Assembly (NCBI GenBank): GCA_025056255.1
Contig: JANWVT010000009.1
Location: forward strand, 1 to 64,000
Origin: Bernardetiaceae bacterium
GTDB taxonomy: Bacteria; Bacteroidota; Bacteroidia; Cytophagales; Thermoflexibacteraceae
Direction of reading: 5' to 3'
Length of the DNA stretch: 64,000 nt
Positions 6,050 to 20,365 of the stretch are shown piece by piece. A program made the position numbers and the translations under genes. How positions within the stretch are numbered: the stretch's first letter is position 1; every line of letters starts with the position of its first letter. The notes beneath the pieces are model-generated. The model was not told the DNA's origin and made no database searches. It saw only the letters and a list, made by a program, of their open reading frames with translations.

Positions 6050-6487
6050 CTACCTTACTAATTCAAAGCGATAAGTGGTAGTAGCTTTTCCCGGTAGCGT
6101 AACATCAAACTCAAACAATAAACGGTTGGGGTTTAGGGCTCCGGTAGAGATTTCTCTGGCTACAGTTACTCCGTCGTCAAAGGTGAGTAAGCGGTCGAAA
6201 GCCATATACTTACCACTGGCATTTCGCGTAAATGAAGGCGCGCCAGCAGGATTTGTTACTTGATAACTACCATCTGGGCGGAATGTAATGCGATAGTCTG
6301 CAAACATATTTAACGGAGCCTCTTCATTGCCAAAAGTGGCACTATTGACACGCCACGTACCGCCGCGCTGAGAAAGAATAGTAAAAAGCAAGTTAATTGT
6401 ATCGCTTGCATTATTCTTGTCAGCACACCCAGTTATCGACAAAACAATCAATAGTCCTGTCAAACATATGATAAATCGCTTTTTCAT
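6050..6487 (-). CDS. Small lipoprotein, lipocalin-like
   Basis: 145 residues starting MKKRFIICLTG with a lipobox ending at Cys (LSITGC), so probably a lipid-anchored envelope protein. After a short low-complexity linker the mature part has a GGTWRVNSATFG strand, then FRPDGSYQVTN and a C-terminal TTYRFELVR. This pattern resembles small lipocalin-like domains of Bacteroidota, a weak assignment. The ATG at 6487 is chosen because it puts the basic signal start in place; an upstream start would add eight residues. It lies 30 bases after the S8-like protease gene, likely cotranscribed with it, and ends at a strong terminator. Function unknown. Confidence 0.7.
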   Translation of the reverse strand: MKKRFIICLTGLLIVLSITGCADKNNASDTINLLFTILSQRGGTWRVNSATFGNEEAPLNMFADYRITFRPDGSYQVTNPAGAPSFTRNASGKYMAFDRLLTFDDGVTVAREISTGALNPNRLLFEFDVTLPGKATTTYRFELVR

Positions 6488-6517
6488 ATATGCTTTCTGT
6501 GTTTTAGTCAATTATAA

Positions 6518-8911
6518 TTACTGCATGATACTAACTTTTCGACGATGAACAGACTTATTCGTCTCAATTGATAAAATGTACACTCCGCTTGGTAAGCCAT
6601 CAGTGTCTATTGTATCGTCAATTACTCCTTGATATGGCAATTCTTTGACAAGTACTTCCTGACCTGCCGCATTGGATAATCTTACTCGTATCGTATTACC
6701 CGCATGTAATTCGCGATAAAAGATGTTTAATCTCCCTTTGCTTGGATTAGGATACACGTTGAAAGCTACTTTTGCAGCGCTATTAGCATCTACTTCTGTA
6801 GCTAAAATGATAGAAGGACGTAGCTCTACTCGATTAGTGAAAGCAGTAAAACGTCCGTTACCTGTTACTCCGCGCACACGGAACGAATAAGTTGTTCCGT
6901 TTATTAAGTTATTAACGGTAAAGTTGGATTCAGTAGTAGTGCCCACCAATGTTTCAACTGGATTACCAGAGGAAGCCACTGCATAAACTTCATAACGTAC
7001 TACCAGCTTACCTGGTACGGGAGTCCATGTTAATTCCACACTTCCACTACCCGGTCGCCCACGTAAGTTAGTGGGGTTCCCCACAGGAATAGCATCTATT
7101 GCTGCATCTGCCTGAACTAAACCTGAGCCAGAGGCAAAATCAAAACCACGGTCAAAGCCGGGAGTGCGAGGATCATCCATATCTATGGAAGTACTTTTTA
7201 GCAATTGTCGTACTATATGAGAAGGCATGCGTCCCCCGTTGGCTTCTATCATCATTGCCACTACAGCAGCTATGTTAGGTGCAGAGGCAGAAGTACCAAA
7301 GAAATTTGGAAAGGCATCAGGGTCTTGTGGGACATCTGTGCCGAAGAAAGAAGTGTTTACACCATCTACTCCGGTCATATCAGGTTTAGCGAGAATTAAT
7401 GGCTGTGCTAATCGCTTTCCTTGAGAATCAAAAAATAATGGAGTTCCTCCAATTTTACCACGGGAGGAGAAAGGTTCTAAAACAGGAGGATTGACCCCGA
7501 AGGCAGGCGTATTGAAGAATGGAGCAGCCCCGATAGTGTAACCATTTACCATAGTAGAGTTATTGCCCAACATGGTACCACTACCTGTCTGCGCCACTGT
7601 ATAAGTTAATAAAGTACTTGCTGCTATACCACTGCTCCAACCTACATATTTGACATAATTGGGTGCTGGCGTGCCGGGTATAAGCTCATAGCCAAATACT
7701 AACCCAACATTAATAGGAGAAGTAGTAAAATTATCTAAATAATAATAGTCCACGGCATCACCCCCGATTGAAGAAAGTTGAATAGCAGTAAAACTAACTC
7801 CTCCGCCTGCTACTAACAGATCTACATTATTTCTCGTACCGGGGCATCTCGGGCAGGCTGAGGCAAATGGTTCATCCCATTGTAAAATAATATCGTTAAA
7901 CCCAAAAGAGGGAATGTTTAAAATTTGGAAAATGTCTACAGCAGGACCGGGATCAAAGTCATGTAATTCGTAGGTTCTTCCAGCTACCGTAACAATAGTT
8001 CCTGATCTTCTAAAAACATCTTCATAACCATAGTCTCGTCCAAAGTTGCCAGCTGACGATAAATATATAGTTCCAGCGCCTGCCACTGCATCAGCAGCTT
8101 GTGCAATTATACCTTGTTGGAAAAATGGCTGTAAGAAATAGCTAATATCATCTACAATAACGTCGCATTTGGCTCTAAAATGAAGGCTCCTAATATTTTG
8201 GGCAAAACTGGCGTCCCCTAAAAAGGCAGTTGCAAAAGCCAGTTCAGCGTCAGGTACGATATCGTGTATTAGTTCTGCCATTGCACGACCTTCATCAATA
8301 CCTCCACTTGGTAAATCTTGAAGTACTTGCACAGGGGTTGTTTTGCCATTTGGATTACCTGGTCCGGGCAAGTTACCAGTAGCTATCCCCAAAGCTTCGC
8401 CATTCAAATTATTGTAACTGTCAGAAAGAATACCAATTTTTACACCCTTGCCAGTAAGTCCGTAGCGCTGACGAGCAATATTTACTGCTTGTGCTTGCAC
8501 AGCTTGACTTATCGGATTATTATTTTGTCTAACAAAAACAGCACGCGCTTCCAAAAGAAAGCTCATGTCATTTAATTGATTTACATTTGTGATAGGCAAA
8601 AAACCAGATACCATACGTCCTTCAACCCCTGTTTCCTCAAAGCCCACACGTGCAAGTTGTGTGCGAAGTGATTCTGTATTAGTTGTGGCAACGGCGTTAA
8701 TGAGTACTCGCCCATTATCTATCTTCAAAAAATCTGGACGATTGTGATGCAAAACAGCGGCTCTTGCGTTTAGCGCATTAATAATGTTGCCTGCTTTGCC
8801 GCTCACACCTACGGCTGCTTTTAATTCGGATAAATCTTGCGCGTACAGACTACCTCCCATCCAGAGGAAAATAGCTGCCTGCAAAAACTTGCGGTAATTT
8901 AGGTTCATCAT
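6518..8911 (-). CDS. S8-family subtilisin-like protease, T9SS cargo, His-to-Glu variant
   Basis: A 797-residue exported protein: signal peptide (to ~25), propeptide-like region (~25-150), S8 domain (~155-590), FN3 domain (~605-700) and T9SS type A sorting domain (~715-797; FNVYPNPSKG to SGVYILSIE). Visible catalytic features are Asp164 in GILSDSYNN, the oxyanion Asn289 in SSAGNF, and Ser541 in FGTSASAPN. The usual HGTxVA histidine is absent: the matching segment reads DEGRAMAELIHD, placing Glu207 there. A Ser-Glu-Asp set resembles sedolisins, so it may still be active, but that is inference. T9SS export implies outer-surface or secreted location. It precedes the lipoprotein gene and is divergent from trpA. 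Two adjacent ATGs (8911, 8908) are possible starts. Confidence 0.9.
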   Translation of the reverse strand: MMNLNYRKFLQAAIFLWMGGSLYAQDLSELKAAVGVSGKAGNIINALNARAAVLHHNRPDFLKIDNGRVLINAVATTNTESLRTQLARVGFEETGVEGRMVSGFLPITNVNQLNDMSFLLEARAVFVRQNNNPISQAVQAQAVNIARQRYGLTGKGVKIGILSDSYNNLNGEALGIATGNLPGPGNPNGKTTPVQVLQDLPSGGIDEGRAMAELIHDIVPDAELAFATAFLGDASFAQNIRSLHFRAKCDVIVDDISYFLQPFFQQGIIAQAADAVAGAGTIYLSSAGNFGRDYGYEDVFRRSGTIVTVAGRTYELHDFDPGPAVDIFQILNIPSFGFNDIILQWDEPFASACPRCPGTRNNVDLLVAGGGVSFTAIQLSSIGGDAVDYYYLDNFTTSPINVGLVFGYELIPGTPAPNYVKYVGWSSGIAASTLLTYTVAQTGSGTMLGNNSTMVNGYTIGAAPFFNTPAFGVNPPVLEPFSSRGKIGGTPLFFDSQGKRLAQPLILAKPDMTGVDGVNTSFFGTDVPQDPDAFPNFFGTSASAPNIAAVVAMMIEANGGRMPSHIVRQLLKSTSIDMDDPRTPGFDRGFDFASGSGLVQADAAIDAIPVGNPTNLRGRPGSGSVELTWTPVPGKLVVRYEVYAVASSGNPVETLVGTTTESNFTVNNLINGTTYSFRVRGVTGNGRFTAFTNRVELRPSIILATEVDANSAAKVAFNVYPNPSKGRLNIFYRELHAGNTIRVRLSNAAGQEVLVKELPYQGVIDDTIDTDGLPSGVYILSIETNKSVHRRKVSIMQ

Positions 8912-11266: not shown

Positions 11267-12715
11267 TTACAGGTTTTCACTGGCATATTGATGGAACTCG
11301 TAGCGCACCACCAAATTAATCAGGTGCATATTGGCGCGGTTGTGTAGAAATGCTAAGGGTATATCTGCTGTTTCCATTGCATGCTTGTAAACATACAATA
11401 CCTGTAAACTTACTCCTTTCAAATATTTGATAAACTTATAGTTTAACTCTGCATTTATTTGCACAAAAGAAGGCATCTGGTATTTATTATAAGCAGCATT
11501 GTGTGGCGAAGGCAAGCTGTAGTAGCCTATTCCCAAACTGCTTTGTAGGCATTTGGGTAGCCAATCAGTTTGCCATTCGGTCATAAAAGCATTCACGGTA
11601 CGCAGCCCTTCGTTGCGCTCGCGCTCCATAAAAGTATAAAAAGGCTCGCGTCCCCACTCGCGCGGCATCAGGAAACGCGTTGTGCCATTAATATTGGTAT
11701 AAGCAACTTTCCACTGGTTTTTACCAAAATGATGTTGCAATTGTGCCGAAATTGCCTGACTGTGCTTACCCGTTTCAGCATAAGCAAACTCAGGTTGCGG
11801 ATTGCCTCCCTGCCCTATTACATCTTGTCGCATTAGTTGTAGTCCTATCTCCCATGTTGGTTTACAGGAGGTATGATGTACAAGCGGCACATCAGCTTGA
11901 AGTAACAAAGTATTGGTTACATTTTCAAAGTAGGTATTCCACAGTTGCATTTTACCTGTCTGTCCCTTCCAAATAAGCGCTGCAATACCAACCCCTTTTG
12001 TTTTGACGTGATGCCTGTAATTAGCCAACTGCCCATTAGGCGCAAGCCCAGCCCAATAAACGCCCAACGACTCTCCTATTTTGTACCACTCAGTAGTAGA
12101 ACGAGGAGCTACATGTGTTAGCCAACCGCCTTCGGCAAATAGCTTTTTGGCAAGTTGCATCTCTGTCCAGAAGCCGCGCACCATAGTAGGGCGCAATCTG
12201 CCATCTTGTGGGTTGATGAAAGGAGTTTTGAGTAGCAAATTGCCCAACGAAGCTGTGAATTTTTTTCCTGTGTAGCGCACAAACATTTCTTCCATTAGAG
12301 TTAGGTCAGAATGTTTGTGAGGCTCGGCAAGGTCAAAAAGCTCGCTCTCGTATCGGCTGTGCTGGTTGGCAATAGAGTCTTTCTCCCAAATATGTTTGGT
12401 TTGAAATGGATTTTCAATTAAAGCACCGCCAAAAGCAAACGAAAAGCCGTGCCACGAGGGCGAGTGGTAATCCAATGCAATAGAAACGCCATTGGCGGCA
12501 TAATCAGCCAGTAAGCCGTGATTGATAGTAGCAGAAGTAAAATTGCGCATCTCTAAGCGAAACTCATTTTTGGGCGGTGGAAAATGCAAAATGGGCTCTT
12601 CTTCAGCCTGACCAGAAAGGCTGTCGGTTTGCTGATGCTGAGCGGCAGCAGTCATTTTCGCAAGCCACAATGTTGCCAAAAGAATTGTACCAATAGCAAG
12701 CTTATTTGTTTTCAT
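11267..12715 (-). CDS. Outer-membrane porin, OprD-like (paralogue B)
   Basis: 482 residues starting MKTNKLAIGTILL with a signal peptide ending near TAAAQ, then a barrel-like sequence ending VVRYEFHQYASENL. It shares long motifs with the downstream paralogue (LLKTPFINPQDGRLRP, PRSTTEWYKIGE, PREWGREPFYTF) and so belongs to the same OprD-like group. The ATG at 12715 lies 14 bases inside the end of the TsdA-like gene, so the two are probably translationally coupled. This is the strongest contextual hint that the channel serves the cytochrome's periplasmic chemistry. An upstream start at 12847 would place 44 extra residues ahead of the signal peptide and is rejected. Confidence 0.78.
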   Translation of the reverse strand: MKTNKLAIGTILLATLWLAKMTAAAQHQQTDSLSGQAEEEPILHFPPPKNEFRLEMRNFTSATINHGLLADYAANGVSIALDYHSPSWHGFSFAFGGALIENPFQTKHIWEKDSIANQHSRYESELFDLAEPHKHSDLTLMEEMFVRYTGKKFTASLGNLLLKTPFINPQDGRLRPTMVRGFWTEMQLAKKLFAEGGWLTHVAPRSTTEWYKIGESLGVYWAGLAPNGQLANYRHHVKTKGVGIAALIWKGQTGKMQLWNTYFENVTNTLLLQADVPLVHHTSCKPTWEIGLQLMRQDVIGQGGNPQPEFAYAETGKHSQAISAQLQHHFGKNQWKVAYTNINGTTRFLMPREWGREPFYTFMERERNEGLRTVNAFMTEWQTDWLPKCLQSSLGIGYYSLPSPHNAAYNKYQMPSFVQINAELNYKFIKYLKGVSLQVLYVYKHAMETADIPLAFLHNRANMHLINLVVRYEFHQYASENL

Positions 12716-13757
12716 TTTGCTGCTTGTACCAATTTTTAATAGGGCGGAACGGACCGTATTTGTGCTGTTTTTCGCTGAAAGAGTCGGCAAAAGGACCAAA
12801 TGGATGGTCGATGGGCTTTTTACTGATGTCAGGCCAATCGCCCGCAAAACGTTTGTCGGGGCGCGGCATGGAGTTGATGTAGGCTGCTACATCCCAAGCT
12901 TCCTCGTCGGAAAGTTGTGGACGTTCCCAAGTGGCACCCAGTGGCATATTAGCTTTTACATATCCTGCCAACCGCGACATGCGATACAGCCCTGCACTCA
13001 CATTATAGCTATGTTCGCCCCACAGTGGAGGGTAAGTGTAGGTTTTGCCATTAGGGGCAAGTTGTCCCTGTCCGTCTTTGCCATGGCAAACTGCACATTT
13101 TTGTTCATAAACCTCTTTACCTGCCACAGGGTCGGCAGCTCTGTCCATGTAAGGCAGTTCCATGATACCTACTCCTTCTGGCGTGGTACCTTTGGGTACG
13201 CCTTGACCCAACCAACGCATGTAGGCAACAATAGATTTCATTTCTTTACTGTTTTCGGCTAATGGCTTTCCGTTCAAACTGCGCTCAAAACAATCGTTAA
13301 CGCGCTTTTCAATTGTTTCAATACTTCCCGAACGTGCGCGAAATTTCGGATACGTACTCCACACTGCCCCGTAATTATTCCCCCACGGACGTGTGCCAGC
13401 ATCTAAATGACAATTCTGACAATTCATTCCATTGGTAGTGTGCCCCAGTGAACCATTTGGACCAAAATAAGCCGCCGTGTTAGCAATCAGTTCTCTGCCG
13501 TAGCGAATGCTGTCGCCCAATTCGTTAGCTGGCAAGCCGCTTAAATCAGGTGCTTTCCACAAAGACACTGTTTCTGTTGGTACAGCCGTAGCCTTAGTAG
13601 TTGCTTGCAAAAAAGGATGTTCGGTAAGCGCTTGTTGAGGTGTTTGTGGATGGAGGAACAACCATATTTGCAACAAAAAAAGTATCAGTAACACAACAAT
13701 CAATGCTGTAAGTTGATAGGTAGCAGCACTCCAACGTTGTAGCCAGTCTTTTTCCAT
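12702..13757 (-). CDS. tsdA: TsdA-like dihaem cytochrome c (thiosulfate dehydrogenase/tetrathionate reductase)
   Basis: 351 residues with an N-terminal membrane helix (~14-36) rather than a cleavable signal, so it is probably tethered to the inner membrane facing the periplasm. Two haem c sites are visible: CQNCH at 113-117 and CAVCH at 221-225. NDCFERS supplies Cys156, at the position of the unusual cysteine axial ligand of haem 1 in Allochromatium TsdA, and NMPLGATW supplies Met271 as the likely haem 2 ligand. The blocks NGMNCQNCHLDAG and YPPLWGEHSYN also match this family, which interconverts thiosulfate and tetrathionate. The direction in this organism cannot be read. It overlaps porin B by 14 bases. 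The ATG at 13757 is preferred to an upstream start at 13790. Confidence 0.88.
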   Translation of the reverse strand: MEKDWLQRWSAATYQLTALIVVLLILFLLQIWLFLHPQTPQQALTEHPFLQATTKATAVPTETVSLWKAPDLSGLPANELGDSIRYGRELIANTAAYFGPNGSLGHTTNGMNCQNCHLDAGTRPWGNNYGAVWSTYPKFRARSGSIETIEKRVNDCFERSLNGKPLAENSKEMKSIVAYMRWLGQGVPKGTTPEGVGIMELPYMDRAADPVAGKEVYEQKCAVCHGKDGQGQLAPNGKTYTYPPLWGEHSYNVSAGLYRMSRLAGYVKANMPLGATWERPQLSDEEAWDVAAYINSMPRPDKRFAGDWPDISKKPIDHPFGPFADSFSEKQHKYGPFRPIKNWYKQQNENK

Positions 13758-13787
13758 ATTTTCAATAAGAGCAATCGTTTTCAAATG

Positions 13788-13795
13788 CAAATATA
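13788..13795 (-). promoter_or_regulatory. Putative -7 box upstream of tsdA-like gene
   Basis: TATATTTG on the minus strand fits TAnnTTTG and lies about 30 bases before the ATG at 13757. No matching -33 element was recognised in this very AT-rich spacer. Confidence 0.35.
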
Positions 13796-14833: not shown

Positions 14834-16093
14834 TCATTCCAGCACAATTTTTTTGCTTAGTACATCTCCATTAGCATCGGTAAAACGGCAAATGTACAGT
14901 CCGCGACTCAGTCCAGTGGTTTGCCACTCTATGACAGATGAGCGAGCACCCACCTGAAAATGAGCCACTTGCCTGCCGTCAACTGTCGTAATTACTACTT
15001 CTCCTACCTGCCCCAAGGGGTATTCAATGCGCACGCGGTCAGAAGCGGGTGAGGGATAAACGGCTATTTCTTTCCGCTGCTGCTCCCCTGAGGTAGCCGC
15101 CAGCACGTTGCAGGCATTTTGCACACCGCGTCTGATTTCTTCCAAACGGCGATACACGTTTTCCCCGGGGCAGTCGGTAGAGCAACCGTCGCGATGCCCT
15201 GAAATGATGTTCAAAGTAGATTGTAGCGAAGTGCCCGGCAGGTGAACTGCCCTGCCAAAGGGATTAGGTAGGTTTTCCTTTTCCATTTTCCATGCAATCA
15301 GCCGATGCAGCGAAAGCAAGGCAGCTTGTGGTGGTTCGGCGGTCATGTAGTTGCCAAGCAGGCAGATGCCCATGGTGTTGCTGTTTTTGCCACAGAAATG
15401 TGCGCCGAGTACATTGTCGCCATCCATGCGCCCCTGCCCATCGCGTCCTTCAAAAATCACTCCGTTCTGTGCAATGACAAAGTTGTAGCCGATGTCGTTC
15501 CAGCCGTTGCTTTGGGTGTGGAAAATGTAGATGTTGCGAACGGTTTCTGTAAAATCGCGCGGGTTGTTAGAGCCTGCCTCGTGGTGAATAATGATAAAAC
15601 GCACCTGTGTAGCTTCGGGGGGATTGCGCGGTGGTGGCAAACCTGCCCGCCATTGTGCGGCAGGCACTACAGTTGGCTTTTCACAAACATTTTCTTCCCG
15701 AAAAGGTACGGGCTCGTATTCCCACCATTTACGGCTATCGGGCAGGCGCGGCACGCTCAGCAGGTGCAAGGTAACTTTGCCGCGTACTTTGCCGCTCTGA
15801 AATCGGATACTCTCTTGCGGGCTGTCAAAAACAGTCAGTTGCGAAGCATAACGCTCCTGATGGCTGTCGGCTTGTAGGGCAATGGTTGTGCCATTGTTCA
15901 GCATCAAGCGGCAGCCCGAGATGTCGGTACCGGGTGCAAATTCTACCGAAAGGCTTGTAACAGCACCGCCCAAATGCCAAACATACTCTTTGTTAGGCAC
16001 TACCTCATACGAAACCGTAGTGTATAGCGGCAGTTGCGCATAAAGCTGCGGCAACAGCGACCAAGTGAGCAAAAAACTGCACAAACGTTTCAT
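14834..16093 (-). CDS. N-acetylmuramoyl-L-alanine amidase (PGRP/amidase-2) with T9SS tail
   Basis: 419 residues: signal peptide (to ~20), a beta-rich N-terminal region (~20-125), an amidase-2/PGRP domain (~150-330) and a T9SS type A sorting domain (~340-419; IAVYPSPASDRVRIEYP to GLYICRFTD). Zinc ligands are visible in IIIHHEAG (His170/171), GHRDG (His300) and TDCPG (Cys308). The family cleaves the bond between N-acetylmuramate and L-alanine in peptidoglycan. The T9SS tail implies secretion, so it may act on other cells' walls or on released fragments. It is the last gene of a minus-strand run that starts at a cobalamin riboswitch, 55 bases after the BtuG-like gene, an unexpected partner for B12 uptake. 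Confidence 0.9.
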   Translation of the reverse strand: MKRLCSFLLTWSLLPQLYAQLPLYTTVSYEVVPNKEYVWHLGGAVTSLSVEFAPGTDISGCRLMLNNGTTIALQADSHQERYASQLTVFDSPQESIRFQSGKVRGKVTLHLLSVPRLPDSRKWWEYEPVPFREENVCEKPTVVPAAQWRAGLPPPRNPPEATQVRFIIIHHEAGSNNPRDFTETVRNIYIFHTQSNGWNDIGYNFVIAQNGVIFEGRDGQGRMDGDNVLGAHFCGKNSNTMGICLLGNYMTAEPPQAALLSLHRLIAWKMEKENLPNPFGRAVHLPGTSLQSTLNIISGHRDGCSTDCPGENVYRRLEEIRRGVQNACNVLAATSGEQQRKEIAVYPSPASDRVRIEYPLGQVGEVVITTVDGRQVAHFQVGARSSVIEWQTTGLSRGLYICRFTDANGDVLSKKIVLE

Positions 16094-16148
16094 AACTTTT
16101 TCATTTTCAGAGCTATGAAGTTACAAAAGTTTGTGCAGTCAAACGATT

Positions 16149-17219
16149 CTACCGGAACAAAAAGCCGTTGGGCGCTCTGCCGGCGGGCAGTGTGCCTATG
16201 CGCGTACCGTCGGGGCGAATGTGGATAATGGTGCCGTTGCCTTGAAAGCCGTTATTGTCTGCCAGCCAAATGCTGCCGTCTTGCGGGTCGCAGCCGATGC
16301 CGTAGAGGTTGTTTTGCGAGAAAATCGGCGTAGTAGGCATTGCGCTTGCCGTAATAGGCAGTTCGTACACACTTTGCGGCGTATTGAATCCACCCACCAA
16401 GAAATAAATCCGCGTGCGGTCGGCGTTCATGGTTGCTTTGCCGTTGGGGCGCACAGTAGCCGACGCGGCAACGGTTGCCTCTACCTGATTGGTGTTGGGA
16501 TTGATGCGGGCGAATCCGCCGCTGCAAACTGCCCAAATCCGATTGTTGGCATCCAATAGCAGCCGCTGCGGACTTTGCAGCACTTCTATGCTTGCCTCAA
16601 TCTGCGCCGTTTCGGGATTGACAACCGCTACGTTACGCGCGCCTGCCAATGCCACAAATATTTTGTTGTTTACCGCTAAAATCCCCTGCGGGAAAGCTGG
16701 CAGTCTTAGGCTGTTCACAATCTGATTGCTTTGCAAATCTATCACTGCCAGTGAGGGGTTATCACGCGAGAAAGTAGGGCTGAACGGTCCCCAGCAGCTT
16801 ACAAAGCCGCGATTGCCCACGGCGGCAAAGTCCTGCGGGTTAATTAAACGGGCTGCGTCGCTAATGGTGGCAACCGATTTCATAGAGCCAGCTTCCAGTA
16901 CTTCCACTTTGTCGGCGCGATTGGCAACGGCATACACACGGTTGTTGTGCAGCCTTGCCGATTGGATAATCCCTGCAAAAGGTCGTTGATTTTCCAATTG
17001 AAAAATTTGCTGCGTTGCTTGTTGCGTGCTGCGATTCCAGAAGGAAAGTTCGCCGTCCGAATCGCTGAAATTGCCTTCGTTGATGATAACAACGCCGTTG
17101 TCATACTTACCGGCAGGCGTAGTGTCCTTATTGCTTGAACAGGCAGCCAACAGCAGCCAAAACAGCAACAGCATGAAGCGATGTGTGAGCTTTTGAGTAG
17201 GTAGTTTTTGTGTCAGCAT
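16149..17219 (-). CDS. BtuG-like beta-propeller lipoprotein (DUF5074/YncE type)
   Basis: 356 residues with a lipoprotein signal (MLLLFWLLLAACSS) and then recurring propeller-blade strands (VVIINEGNFSDSDG, KVEVLEAGSMKSV, SLAVIDLQSNQIVNSLR, NVAVVNPETAQIEASIEV). This matches the YncE/DUF5074 propellers that sit beside BtuB in Bacteroidota. In Bacteroides such proteins (BtuG) are surface lipoproteins that bind B12 very tightly and pass it to BtuB. Here it is in the same minus-strand run as a BtuB-like receptor behind a cobalamin riboswitch, so B12 capture is the likely role. Two other genes separate it from the receptor. The ATG at 17219 is used; a start 15 codons later is also possible. Confidence 0.8.
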   Translation of the reverse strand: MLTQKLPTQKLTHRFMLLLFWLLLAACSSNKDTTPAGKYDNGVVIINEGNFSDSDGELSFWNRSTQQATQQIFQLENQRPFAGIIQSARLHNNRVYAVANRADKVEVLEAGSMKSVATISDAARLINPQDFAAVGNRGFVSCWGPFSPTFSRDNPSLAVIDLQSNQIVNSLRLPAFPQGILAVNNKIFVALAGARNVAVVNPETAQIEASIEVLQSPQRLLLDANNRIWAVCSGGFARINPNTNQVEATVAASATVRPNGKATMNADRTRIYFLVGGFNTPQSVYELPITASAMPTTPIFSQNNLYGIGCDPQDGSIWLADNNGFQGNGTIIHIRPDGTRIGTLPAGRAPNGFLFR

Positions 17220-17243
17220 AATTAAATGAATTGATGAATGATT

Positions 17244-17651
17244 TTACAATACAGAAGTCGGTTGGCGGTTATGGTCTAAGGCAACGAAGGTGAACTGCCC
17301 TACAATGGCTTGCTCGCGCCCTTCGCTGTACATTTGTTCGGTAAAAACCTCTACCGATACGCGCAGACTGGTACGCCCTACGTGCACAATGCGGGCAACC
17401 AGTTCTACAATCGTTCCGGCAGGGATAGGCTTGTTGAAGTCTATTTTGTCGCTGCAAACCGTTACCACTTTTTTGCGGGTAAACCGCGTAGCGGCAATGA
17501 ACGCCACCTCATCCATCAGCGACATGGCAGTGCCGCCAAAAAGGGTGTCGTAGTGGTTGGTCAGGTTGGGAAATACGGCTTTGAAAATGCGCGTTTCGGC
17601 ATTTGCCATGCGCTTCTGAATAGCCGATGATTCAATCAAGGGTTGGTTCAT
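17244..17651 (-). CDS. Acyl-CoA thioesterase, hotdog fold (YciA-like)
   Basis: 135 residues, a normal single-hotdog length. The family pattern PNLTNHYDTLFGGTAMSLMDE near residues 28-48 contains the active-site Asp region, followed by KIDFNKPIPAGTIVELVARI. Such cytosolic enzymes hydrolyse acyl-CoA to free acid and CoA. Its ATG overlaps the stop of the CWC/DUF5522 gene by 4 bases (ATGA), so the two are translationally coupled. It lies within the riboswitch-led run, although a thioesterase has no known step in B12 uptake. A link through B12-dependent methylmalonyl-CoA metabolism is possible but speculative. Confidence 0.9.
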   Translation of the reverse strand: MNQPLIESSAIQKRMANAETRIFKAVFPNLTNHYDTLFGGTAMSLMDEVAFIAATRFTRKKVVTVCSDKIDFNKPIPAGTIVELVARIVHVGRTSLRVSVEVFTEQMYSEGREQAIVGQFTFVALDHNRQPTSVL

Positions 17652-18010
17652 TTGCGTTTTGATTTAAATCCGTACACACAATGGCGGCAACCGCTTTGGC
17701 AGCAATAGCCGCGCTGAAAATGATACAGTTCGGTGAATACCCAATAGCTACCCTCTTTGTAGTAGTGCACGCTTTCTATCAAAGGGATGCCGCGTGTAGG
17801 CTTAGGATATCGTGAGGCTTGGCGGCTCAGGTTTTCCAAATAGGCAAGACAGTTTTTGCACAGGCAATCGTTCCAATGCGAGGCTTCCAACATTTTTCTG
17901 ACAGTTTCAGAAACCGCCACTTCGCTGCACTGGCAATTGGCTACATCACCGGGTTTGCACTCAAATAAAGTGCTGCATCGGGGGCAATATTTGGGTTCGT
18001 GGGTCGCCAT
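17648..18010 (-). CDS. Cysteine-rich CWC plus DUF5522 protein
   Basis: 120 residues with eleven or so cysteines and no signal peptide. The N-terminal half has YCPRCSTLFECKPGD and CQCSEV, then CLCKNCLAYL, as in the 'cysteine-rich CWC' family. The C-terminal part, YWVFTELYHFQRGYCCQSG with CRHCVYGF, matches DUF5522. These two are often separate small proteins, so this looks like a fusion. Spaced CxxC pairs suggest zinc or another metal; the function of both families is unknown. It starts 29 bases after the B12 receptor gene and overlaps the thioesterase start by 4 bases. Confidence 0.8.
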   Translation of the reverse strand: MATHEPKYCPRCSTLFECKPGDVANCQCSEVAVSETVRKMLEASHWNDCLCKNCLAYLENLSRQASRYPKPTRGIPLIESVHYYKEGSYWVFTELYHFQRGYCCQSGCRHCVYGFKSKRK

Positions 18011-18039
18011 GGCGATTGGGGATTTCGGATTTGCAATCG

Positions 18040-19932
18040 TTAATTATCAATTGTTACACTGATGCCTGCCTGAAAATGTCTGCCGGGCATAGCGCGCAGT
18101 TGGAAGTTCTGATAGTCGGCATTAAGCAGGTTGTTAATGCGCAGCAGCACCTGCCCCTGTACTTTTTTCAGCTGCAAGTCTTTGGAAACCATCAGGTTAC
18201 AAAGCCAAAAAGGTTTGAGCGAGGTCTCATTGTCTGCCGTTGGGTAGCGCGTGCCGGTGTAGTTGGCATCGGTTTGCAGCAGCCAGCCTTTCCATACAAT
18301 CGCCGATGAAGCCTGTGCGCGATGCAGCGGCGTATAGGGCAACTGCTTGCCCACTGAGCGGTCGTTGTCGTTAAGCGGCTGCAAGTTCAGCGATTGGTTG
18401 AGCGCATAGTGCCCGCGAAGTTCCCAATAGCCGCCTGTGATAAGGCGACGATATAATCCACTGATTTCTACACCTGTTACACGCACTTCCCGCGCATTTT
18501 CGGGCGACCAGAAACTGCCGCGCGGCAGCCATAAAATCCAGTCTTGCACCCACATGCGGAACAGCGTCGTATGGAATTGCAAGAAATTTCCTTGCTTGCG
18601 GTGTTCCCAACCCAGCGAAGTTTCGGCATTGTAGCTGTGTTCGGGGCGAATATCGGGGTTGCCACCGGGCTGCCAGAATCGGTCGTTCAGGGTAGGCACG
18701 CGGTAGCCCTTAGAAGCCTGCACTTTCCACGTAAGCATTTGATTAGCAGCTATCTTGTGCTGCCATTGGCTGCCTAAGGCGGGCGCAATTGGTGCGCTGA
18801 AACGGGGGACAAGCGTTTGCCGGACAGTTGCCGAAAGCAGCCAATTCGGGCGGACTTGCAGGCGCGACAGGACAAACCAATCGGCACGTTGTTCGGTAAC
18901 AGTGTTGCCGTAGGCGCGTACTTGTGCAGAAGTATGCTGCACATTGCCACCAATTTCAGTAGTCAATCGGCTGTTCCAGCTTTGTTCGTGCCGAGCCTGT
19001 GCCAGATAGCGCCACGTAGCCGAACGACTGCCGTTGAAAATAATTTCATCAAAAATAAATGCCGTTTTGGCGCGGAAAACGCCTATTTTGCCCGTGAGTT
19101 GCTCATAATCAGCTACAAGGCGCAGGTTTTCGTCGCGTTGCTCATCGCGGACTTCTTGTGCCGCCATAGTGGGCTGCACCTGCCGAAAATGGTTGTGATA
19201 CCAAGTTTTGAGCGACAGTTGCCGCTTGTTGTCTGGTCGGAAGTAGATTTCAGGCGTAAATCCCCAATAGTGCACGGCGGCGTTTTGTTGGCGCTCAATA
19301 GGTGCGCCCGCTTTGGCAATGTTGCGAAAAGGGAAATCATTTTGTTGCTGCAAGCGGTACAAGCCCGTTTGCACCTGCCATTTTTCGTTGCCACCACTTG
19401 CCTGCAAGCGCGTGAAATAACGCCCAAAACTGCCGAACTCCTGCTGCAAATTTGCACGTAAACCATTGTGCCATTCGGCATCAGTGCGCATATGTACTGT
19501 ACCGCCGAGCGCATCGCTGCCATAGAGCGATGAGCCGCTGCCCGGCTGTACCACCACTCGGCAGCCCGTAGCCATTGGCACCGTATTGAAGTCAATTTGT
19601 CCCAACGTAGGCAGATTCAGGTTGATGCCGTTCCAGAGCAACGCCGTTTGCGAAGGTCCTGTGCCACGCATAGAAACGGTTGCCAACATACCGCCGCCGT
19701 ATTCGCGCATATAAACCGCTGACTGCCGCATGAGCAAATCGCTGAGGGAGGCACTTGCCAACCGCGACAAAACCGCGCTATCGGGCTGCCAGACAGCAGC
19801 ACCAACGGCAAACTTACTTTCCGGAATGCCGCGCACCGTTACCTCACGCAGCGTACGCACCGAATCGGGCTGTTGCGCCTGTAAGGTATAGGTACAAGCC
19901 AACAGGATTGCCGACAAAGCAACCTTTTTCAT
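18040..19932 (-). CDS. btuB: TonB-dependent receptor, BtuB-like (cobalamin)
   Basis: 630 residues: signal peptide (MKKVALSAILLACTYTLQAQ), TonB box-like start (LREVTVRGIPE), plug domain (~25-160; MRGTGPSQTALLWNG, GSGSSLYGSDALGGTV) and a 22-strand type barrel ending FQAGISVTIDN. It transports a large substrate across the outer membrane using TonB energy. The cobalamin assignment rests on context: a cobalamin riboswitch lies about 125 bases upstream on the same strand and a BtuG-like propeller lies downstream. The ATG at 19932 starts the signal peptide; an ATG five codons upstream adds MQCFF only. Locally GC-rich compared with much of the window. Confidence 0.88.
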   Translation of the reverse strand: MKKVALSAILLACTYTLQAQQPDSVRTLREVTVRGIPESKFAVGAAVWQPDSAVLSRLASASLSDLLMRQSAVYMREYGGGMLATVSMRGTGPSQTALLWNGINLNLPTLGQIDFNTVPMATGCRVVVQPGSGSSLYGSDALGGTVHMRTDAEWHNGLRANLQQEFGSFGRYFTRLQASGGNEKWQVQTGLYRLQQQNDFPFRNIAKAGAPIERQQNAAVHYWGFTPEIYFRPDNKRQLSLKTWYHNHFRQVQPTMAAQEVRDEQRDENLRLVADYEQLTGKIGVFRAKTAFIFDEIIFNGSRSATWRYLAQARHEQSWNSRLTTEIGGNVQHTSAQVRAYGNTVTEQRADWFVLSRLQVRPNWLLSATVRQTLVPRFSAPIAPALGSQWQHKIAANQMLTWKVQASKGYRVPTLNDRFWQPGGNPDIRPEHSYNAETSLGWEHRKQGNFLQFHTTLFRMWVQDWILWLPRGSFWSPENAREVRVTGVEISGLYRRLITGGYWELRGHYALNQSLNLQPLNDNDRSVGKQLPYTPLHRAQASSAIVWKGWLLQTDANYTGTRYPTADNETSLKPFWLCNLMVSKDLQLKKVQGQVLLRINNLLNADYQNFQLRAMPGRHFQAGISVTIDN

Positions 19933-20008
19933 AAAAAAACATTGCATTCAGGTTTGAATTTTTGACAATTCAACCCAAAGCCATACAGCAAAAAACAGTC
20001 GGACTTTG

Positions 20009-20020
20009 CGGAAATTTCCG
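20009..20020. promoter_or_regulatory. Perfect palindrome in the riboswitch-receptor leader
   Basis: CGGAAATTTCCG is a 12-base perfect palindrome between the riboswitch core and the receptor start codon. It may be part of the riboswitch expression platform or an operator; which one cannot be decided from sequence. Confidence 0.3.
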
Positions 20021-20056
20021 AAGCATCCTCAGCTTTTCACCCGAAAGCCTTGAATC

Positions 20057-20248
20057 GTGCGATGTGGGCAGGTCTCCTGGCTTGCTCACCGCTAATCGCC
20101 TTCCCAAAACCCGCAGGTTTCAGTGGCATGAGGGTTGATTAGCAGCTTGGTAAATGAGCTTACAGTTGCGGGGACAGCTCCGGACTCACACCGGATTCCC
20201 TTTTAAGCCGTGCAACAGCCTGTATTGCACAGCACCCTAACATCGGTG
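20057..20248 (-). promoter_or_regulatory. Cobalamin (AdoCbl-type) riboswitch
   Basis: On the minus strand the conserved core is present in order: GGGAATCCGGTGTGAGTCCG, then the P6-side GGAGCTGTCCCCGCAACTG, then GCCACTG, then the B12-box region AAGCCAGGAGACCTGCC. GATGT near the 5' side can pair with ACATC at the 3' side to close P1. The element ends about 125 bases before the BtuB-like receptor start. By family knowledge, ligand binding represses downstream expression, so the whole run down to the amidase may be B12-repressed. Confidence 0.95.
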
Positions 20249-20365
20249 CAAATGTAGCGAAACTGAGAAGAAAAAAGAAAAACTTCTGGCAAGTTCAGAT
20301 TTTACGGACTAATTTGGCTCTCCGTTCGTTAAATAAAAAACACACTCTCTTAGATAAAATAAGCA

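Follow-up and report, generated by a model that had tools for sequence, protein, structure and literature searches.

Why should an operon for the uptake of vitamin B12 (cobalamin) contain an acyl-coenzyme A (acyl-CoA) thioesterase? The question is raised by a minus-strand locus of a Bernardetiaceae bacterium (GenBank assembly GCA_025056255.1, contig JANWVT010000009.1, positions 1 to 64,000; this whole stretch of 64,000 nucleotides is called the window here). From 20254 down to 14834, the locus reads: cobalamin riboswitch, BtuB-like receptor, CWC/DUF5522 protein, hotdog thioesterase (TE), BtuG-like propeller and amidase. Sequence comparison indicates that the TE and the CWC protein are almost certainly members of a cobalamin-riboswitch regulon. 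As a whole, the locus may be a B12-scarcity operon in which the TE relieves stalled mutases, with the CWC protein as a non-obligatory partner, a reading to which a probability of about one half is given.

Linkage of the thioesterase to cobalamin riboswitches

Kinship is left uncorrected in all the samples and statistics used here. The relatives set comprises 59 genomes, the window's own and 58 from its genus, family and order, and was searched for the riboswitch, the TE, the CWC protein, BtuG and the amidase. Its TE matches comprise 20 close orthologs (E ≤ 3.1e-28) and 97 distant paralogs. A same-strand riboswitch is found no more than 8 kb upstream of 11 of the 20 orthologs, and of 0 of the 97 paralogs (Fisher p = 2e-10, ignoring kinship). 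The window TE is 62-79% identical to 15 other aligned orthologs. The TE relatives in G044 and G058 (loci L127 and L128), at 42-47% identity and with no nearby riboswitch, are counted among the 20 and may form a separate subfamily.

The linkage extends well beyond these relatives. Named loci were fetched by TE similarity, as the best 80 of at least 587 confirmed, and 70 of the 80 are preceded, within 5.6 kb and in the same orientation, by a riboswitch. Fifteen of these were called by Rfam and 55 by a regular-expression (regex) pattern, the latter nearly all from Chryseobacterium, which supplies 49 of the 70. (The riboswitches of L114 and L115 were called by regex only; L034 appears to be G003 of the relatives set again; and marginal Rfam scores were taken as present in L102, L108, L150 and L156, at 33.0, 35.1, 32.7 and 33.6 bits against 31.5.) The ten unlinked loci were all scanned with Rfam, and two of them, L054 and L062, carry less than 3 kb upstream of the TE. 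Among 198 genomes drawn evenly from the phylum, 15 contain the TE (E ≤ 1e-25), and in nine it is riboswitch-linked (G000, G040, G095, G175, G100, G113, G185, G227 and G273). The six others, five genomes of the genus g51 and G085, have no riboswitch near the TE, as scanned by Rfam in five cases and by regex only in G253. In the family of G069, sampled with 80 genomes, the TE occurs in 21 and is linked in 12, including L143 and L158, where it is the first gene behind an RF01482 switch, and L146, where a 413-residue open reading frame (ORF) intervenes; the nine remaining TE genomes were scanned and have no riboswitch near the TE. Three Rfam families of cobalamin riboswitch precede the TE: RF00174, RF01689 and RF01482. 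A tree of 86 TE rows is poorly resolved, with 40 of 81 inner branches open.

An apparent transfer across phyla was rejected. A record labelled Glaciecola amylolytica (L069, riboswitch-CWC-TE) shares its search family with the Crocinitomicaceae metagenome-assembled genome of L062; its label is therefore doubtful, and no gammaproteobacterial case is claimed. The CWC-TE unit of L069 is of the Bacteroidota type, and the Glaciecola label is probably wrong. The Saccharibacteria label of L113 was treated as equally doubtful.

In which operons is the TE found? In some it is the first gene: the distance from its own riboswitch to the start of the match is 189 bases in G040 and 166 bases in G056, and the same placement holds for 49 of 49 fetched Chryseobacterium loci (mostly by regex) and for three Pontibacter loci, and is confirmed by an Rfam riboswitch in L035, L058 and L086. 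At L114 and L115, the only loci of this kind with downstream genes listed, no long same-strand ORF lies closely downstream of the TE. Other copies stand in metE operons, ordered riboswitch-metE-CWC-PAS-TE (G008), riboswitch-metE-[CWC-TE] (G025), riboswitch-metE-PAS-TE (Echinicola L107), riboswitch-metE-CWC-TE (Flexithrix L112 and Taibaiella L104) or riboswitch-metE-TE (Mucilaginibacter L074). In Pedobacter L041 the order is riboswitch-metE-KASIII-TE, with the gene for the ketoacyl-ACP synthase III (KASIII)-like protein at 7011-8024 recognised by Pfam; an ORF of the same size fills the metE-TE interval of L064 (6982-7995). A small PAS-domain protein between metE and the TE is seen in two families (L017 7133-7693; L107 7495-7986).

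The nrdAB operons with a TE come mostly from other classes of the phylum. The order is riboswitch (RF00174)-nrdB-nrdA-TE in L116 and L126, the latter with an additional 72-residue ORF, and riboswitch (RF00174)-nrdB-TE-nrdA in L117, while L108 has riboswitch-nrdB-nrdA-TE with a marginal riboswitch score. In L124, nrdB-nrdA-TE stands behind a separate class, AdoCbl-II (RF01689), and L125, from the same genus, has the same RF01689 switch, with its genes assigned by layout. Finally, btuB operons hold the TE in the window, G001-G003, G035 and G019. G001, G002 and G003, all of the same genus, share with the window the order riboswitch-btuB-CWC-TE-btuG, which recurs in G035 of another family (L026), where the CWC protein and the TE are fused. 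G014 has riboswitch-TonB receptor-DUF6580-diphthamide-synthase-like-TE, and L109 has riboswitch-CWC/DUF5522-TE-DUF4465 (BtuH-type)-Dph-DUF6580-T9SS protein-CobT (T9SS, type IX secretion system). The pairing of DUF6580 with a diphthamide-synthase-like gene is thus seen in two cobalamin-riboswitch operons (L021 5380-6618; L109 6207-7478), and DUF6580 may, as a guess, be part of a membrane transporter. Another cobalamin operon (L022 9626-12928, minus strand) opens with two T9SS-tailed proteins and an FGE-sulfatase-like protein, followed by btuB.

Since the CWC protein and the TE recur behind cobalamin riboswitches in so many contexts, B12 regulation of the first four genes of the window operon is very likely. 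The original prediction, made from the sequence of the locus, had supposed that all five genes may be B12-regulated and had spoken of unusual passengers. For the CWC protein and the TE the second description does not hold, since they are recurrent members of the regulon; the association in relatives, whose absence was to count against the idea, is conserved for both. For the amidase, by contrast, "passenger" is probably apt.

The window operon, its leader and the CWC protein

The gene order of the original prediction was confirmed. RF00174 together with Pfam and Protein Data Bank (PDB) matches agrees with a cobalamin riboswitch heading a BtuB/BtuG operon, ORFs and Pfam concur on the CWC/DUF5522 protein and the thioesterase between receptor and propeller and on the T9SS amidase behind, and the intergenic spacings of 29 bases, a 4-base overlap, 24 bases and 55 bases are exact by ORF coordinates. 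The aptamer (RF00174, 20050-20254, minus strand) scores 107.6 bits in cmscan against a gathering score of 31.5 (E 5.7e-26) and is complete, covering model positions 1-189. It is the sole Rfam match at the gathering threshold in the window, was recovered again by the whole-genome riboswitch search, and runs 6 bases past the end at 20,248 given earlier. At its 5' edge, a pattern scan found a promoter-like -7 element, TACATTTG (20249-20256, minus strand), which fits TAnnTTTG, presumably the -7 motif of the Bacteroidota, and which is kept as TACATTTG or TATCTTTG in the aligned leaders of three genomes of the same genus, as is much of the aptamer. No clear -33 element was seen. On the minus strand between 14700 and 20700, TAnnTTTG occurs at six sites, one at the aptamer edge, five within genes and none in the intergenic gaps of the operon; the scan also gave two minus-strand terminator-like sites, both within genes. 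The leader between aptamer and receptor gene (19933-20049, minus strand) is the putative expression platform region. A single fold of 19930-20260 gave z = -1.96, and an alignment of four leaders shows a hairpin region and a T-rich stretch that G002 and G003 preserve in part and G001 to a lesser degree. Elsewhere in the same genome (contig C19, L013, ~6143-8811), a second cobalamin riboswitch directly leads metE, and MetH is also encoded.

All five genes lie on the minus strand. The TonB-dependent receptor (18040-19932, 630 residues from the ATG at 19932; the ORF may start at 19947) has a Plug domain (PF07715). Its best NCBIfam match, TIGR01779 (TonB-B12), reaches 85.3 bits, under the equivalog cut-off of 599.7, and the protein is accordingly called BtuB-like. 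All four of its PDB matches at E ≤ 1e-10 are receptors from entries of the BtuB-BtuG type, among them 8bmx_C (E 6.1e-61) and 8p98_A, "Vitamin B12 transporter BtuB" (E 6.3e-57). The propeller (16149-17219, 356 residues; PF16819, DUF5074, 59 bits) matches 8bmx_D (E 3.4e-13) and 3dsm_A (E 6.7e-13). As expected of a BtuG it shares its operon with a btuB-like gene, although the two genes are not adjacent; its translation shows a lipobox-like LLAAC, and it is predicted to be a surface lipoprotein that binds B12. Receptor and propeller together match the solved BtuB-BtuG complexes 8bmx and 8p97, structures that have reportedly been described in a paper of their own. The TE (17244-17651, 135 residues) scores 71.2 bits for PF03061 (4HBT) against a gathering score of 20.6. 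It is YciA-like, yet reaches only 58 bits for the YciA equivalog NF007970, with its cut-off of 162; PDB relatives include 2gvh, 2eis and several acyl-CoA hydrolases, and acyl-CoA hydrolysis is the predicted function.

The CWC/DUF5522 protein, of 120 residues (17648-18010), joins a cysteine-rich CWC domain (PF14375, 38.8 bits, gathering score 24) to DUF5522 (PF17653, 66.6 bits, gathering score 25). The cysteine pattern of the CWC part is invariant in an alignment of ten sequences that includes the window's, and the protein probably binds metal through these residues. A profile search of the PDB found no relative (best E 0.42), and Foldseek with an AlphaFold2 model of mean pLDDT (predicted local distance difference test) 63 gave no significant fold match (best E 1.6). 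CWC and 4HBT share one ORF of 191-192 residues in L022, L023 and L026, from three families; no stop lies between the domains, and internal ATGs are present, so a second start is possible. DUF5522 also occurs apart from the TE: G030 has riboswitch-btuB-DUF5522 with no TE in the operon, and in G022 (L159 2331-3479, minus strand) a BtuG-like propeller and DUF5522 form a single ORF of 382 residues in a riboswitch-btuB operon. The G022 joining is odd, in that it brings together a surface-lipoprotein family and a domain whose other occurrences here are in small proteins.

A proposed role at stalled mutases, and rival explanations

What would the thioesterase do in such an operon? Cobalamin riboswitches shut genes off at ample B12, so the window operon should be on when B12 is scarce. 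The products of metE and nrdAB replace B12-dependent MetH and NrdJ; among enzymes that need B12, the acyl-CoA mutases are the other major group, and no isozyme is known for them. In the proposed mechanism, low cobalamin would permit expression through the riboswitch, and the BtuB-BtuG outer-membrane uptake pair would be made together with the CWC/DUF5522 protein and the TE, both presumably intracellular. B12-dependent acyl-CoA mutases (methylmalonyl-CoA mutase and IcmF-like enzymes) would be starved of their cofactor, acyl-CoA would accumulate, and the TE would hydrolyse short or branched acyl-CoA of the propionyl-, methylmalonyl- or isobutyryl-type, so that CoA is freed and the acid leaves. 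The TE would thus add a third arm to B12 sparing, in which MetE stands in for MetH and NrdAB for NrdJ, and the cysteine-rich, probably metal-binding CWC protein would be its non-obligatory partner. Comparison bears out the recurrent placement behind riboswitches, the CWC-TE fusion and the co-location with metE, nrdAB and btuB; the direction of regulation, the substrate, metal binding and the physiological role are deduced. As a measure of what such a switch can do, a repression of about 70-fold was measured via a corrinoid riboswitch, according to the accessible part of PMC6143338.

A mutase match is present in 35 of 35 tested genomes with a linked TE (11 from the relatives set, 7 further phylum genomes and 17 named). 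In the relatives set, all 20 genomes with the TE have a mutase, compared to 27 of the 39 without it (p = 0.005, ignoring kinship). Two single cases may be added: G001 has a linked TE, no MetH match and a single mutase match, IcmF-like by its 1151-residue frame, while G063 has MetH, no mutase match at E ≤ 1e-60, and an unlinked TE. Such co-occurrence fits the mutase reading but does not discriminate.

A number of observations weigh against that reading. In the phylum sample 193 of 198 genomes have a mutase, 14 of 15 with the TE and 179 of 183 without; with mutases nearly universal, co-occurrence is uninformative there, and 179 of the 193 mutase-bearing genomes manage without the TE. The 35 of 35 for linked genomes does not differ significantly from the 21 of 23 for unlinked ones (p about 0.15, calculated by hand). 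G085 keeps the TE with no mutase match (E ≤ 1e-80) and no MetH match (E ≤ 1e-20), so the TE must have some use without them. Nearby riboswitches are lacking for 9 of the 20 orthologs in the relatives set and for all five g51 genomes of the phylum sample, and Larkinella L103 has metE-CWC-TE with no match in the Rfam scan. Nor does the sequence give the substrate of the TE; that it works on mutase-related acyl-CoA is put at slightly below even odds. As to the partner, a CWC ORF adjoins the TE in 9 of the 80 named loci and is not beside it in 71, mostly because Chryseobacterium has no CWC at the TE; CWC and TE are adjacent in G039 with no riboswitch near; and G041 has riboswitch-btuB-btuG-CWC/DUF5522 in a genome without a close TE ortholog. 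The sparse adjacency and the G039 pair imply that the partnership is not obligatory. That the two proteins act together where both occur is nonetheless probable, and would be held more firmly were CWC beside the TE in more than those nine loci.

How do other explanations fare? If the TE and CWC were housekeeping genes that entered B12 operons by chance or hitchhiking, the orthologs without a linked riboswitch would be accounted for, as would L118, where the TE lies beside ribBA-, LptF/G-, LolA- and FtsK-type genes, and the window amidase itself looks like a hitchhiker. The contrast between orthologs and paralogs in riboswitch linkage, and a TE led by three riboswitch families across metE, nrdAB, btuB and CobT operons, make this extremely improbable, and with the TE as first gene right behind the switch hitchhiking is hard to invoke. 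The TE might, on the other hand, serve to remodel acyl pools or the lipids of the membrane when B12 is scarce, independently of mutase failure, for example with a B12-regulated KASIII or desaturase. KASIII uses acyl-CoA primers, and it is this enzyme that lies between metE and the TE in Pedobacter L041, with the ORF of the same size in L064. Metagenomes have yielded a fatty-acid desaturase controlled by a cobalamin riboswitch, as reported in the accessible part of PMC2211319. This role is unlikely, however: KASIII was recognised by Pfam at one Pedobacter locus only, and the first-gene TE of Chryseobacterium needs no upstream lipid gene. Much the same low standing is given to a role of the CWC/TE pair in cobamide handling (salvage, or processing of the lower ligand or the cofactor); the substrate of the hotdog protein would then be an unknown or non-CoA thioester. 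The L109 operon, which unites CWC/DUF5522, TE, BtuH-type DUF4465, DUF6580 and CobT, the order seen in G014, and DUF5522 without TE after btuB in G030 and in the BtuG frame of G022 would suit such a role, and so would a "cysteine-rich CWC protein" listed between CbiA and precorrin-2 dehydrogenase in a Sulfurospirillum cobamide cluster (PMC7755780, accessible part), a label whose equivalence with PF14375 is unconfirmed. The PDB relatives of the TE are mostly acyl-CoA hydrolases, however, and between switch and TE, the metE and nrdAB operons examined showed no identifiable gene for cobamide processing. An extension of the mutase reading, itself rather doubtful, is that the TE is a dedicated drain for stalled mutases and that the CWC/DUF5522 protein, wherever it is fused or adjacent to the TE, is a metal- or cobamide-responsive gate on it; if true, gate and riboswitch would give protein-level and RNA-level B12 control of CoA release.

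There remains the amidase (14834-16093, minus strand, 419 residues), a PGRP-type Amidase_2 (PF01510, 62.1 bits) with a T9SS sorting tail (PF18962, Por_Secre_tail, 33.3 bits). It could be a functional B12 scavenger that, for example, opens the cell walls of neighbours to release cobamides: its position and strand agree between the window genome, G002 and G003, its gap is only 55 bases, and T9SS-tailed proteins also occur in the B12 operons of L022 and L109. These three are, however, the only genomes of the relatives set in which it is linked to the operon, with no linkage beyond the genus. G001 keeps the rest of the operon and has no amidase match at E ≤ 1e-3. Full-length homologs lie elsewhere in the genome in five cases, on contigs other than that of the riboswitch in G004, G009, G011 and G054 (three of these assemblies have more than 300 contigs) and more than 60 kb from it in G020. 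The scavenger role is thus very unlikely; the amidase is probably a lineage-local passenger found in part of the genus, and the recurrence that was looked for in relatives is limited, in its case, to the genus. Further along the window (11267-13790, minus strand) are a two-domain cytochrome c with a SoxA/TsdA-like part and then a weak OprD-like porin gene.

Comparison with known systems

How much of this is new? The TE resembles hotdog thioesterases of the YciA/ACOT type (4HBT, PF03061) in its Pfam domain and PDB relatives, but it forms a close subfamily that is CWC-fused in three families and riboswitch-linked. In human methylmalonic and propionic acidaemia, acyl-CoA is likewise hydrolysed when the B12-dependent mutase step fails; there it is a side reaction of disease, whereas here, by analogy, it would be a B12-regulated bacterial response. 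The operon frame of riboswitch, BtuB and BtuG is already known. Bacteroides BtuB-BtuG loci, in the accessible part of PMC6143338, share with the window the corrinoid riboswitch, the BtuB-type receptor and the BtuG-type seven-bladed lipoprotein; they differ in that the window has CWC/DUF5522 and an acyl-CoA thioesterase between btuB and btuG. The B12-independent isozymes under cobalamin riboswitches (metE and nrd; PMC2211319 and PMC8620254, accessible parts) are alike in that the TE occurs in the same operons behind the same switch classes, and production of the TE is therefore to be expected under B12 shortage. The TE is, however, no isozyme of a known B12 enzyme: instead of substituting for a reaction, it would ease a blockage.

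Searches of an open-access library turned up no earlier account of cobalamin-riboswitch control of a thioesterase, though one may exist elsewhere. The word "thioesterase" is missing from the accessible main text of PMC2211319, PMC2258182, PMC6143338 and PMC9600662, and the accessible part of PMC8620254 merely names an acyl-ACP thioesterase in the gene list of a figure legend. What appears to be new is the recurrent targeting, by cobalamin riboswitches, of a conserved acyl-CoA thioesterase that outside Chryseobacterium often has a cysteine-rich partner.

Cobalamin-riboswitch regulons are usually read in terms of uptake, synthesis and B12-independent isozymes. A thioesterase that stands first behind the switch, or beside metE or nrdAB, suggests that there is a third category of target, the management of acyl-CoA at mutase failure. 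Two little-known domains, CWC and DUF5522, and an otherwise anonymous hotdog enzyme would thereby gain a testable role, and the question of how bacteria survive with a stalled methylmalonyl-CoA mutase would become testable in laboratory Bacteroidota.

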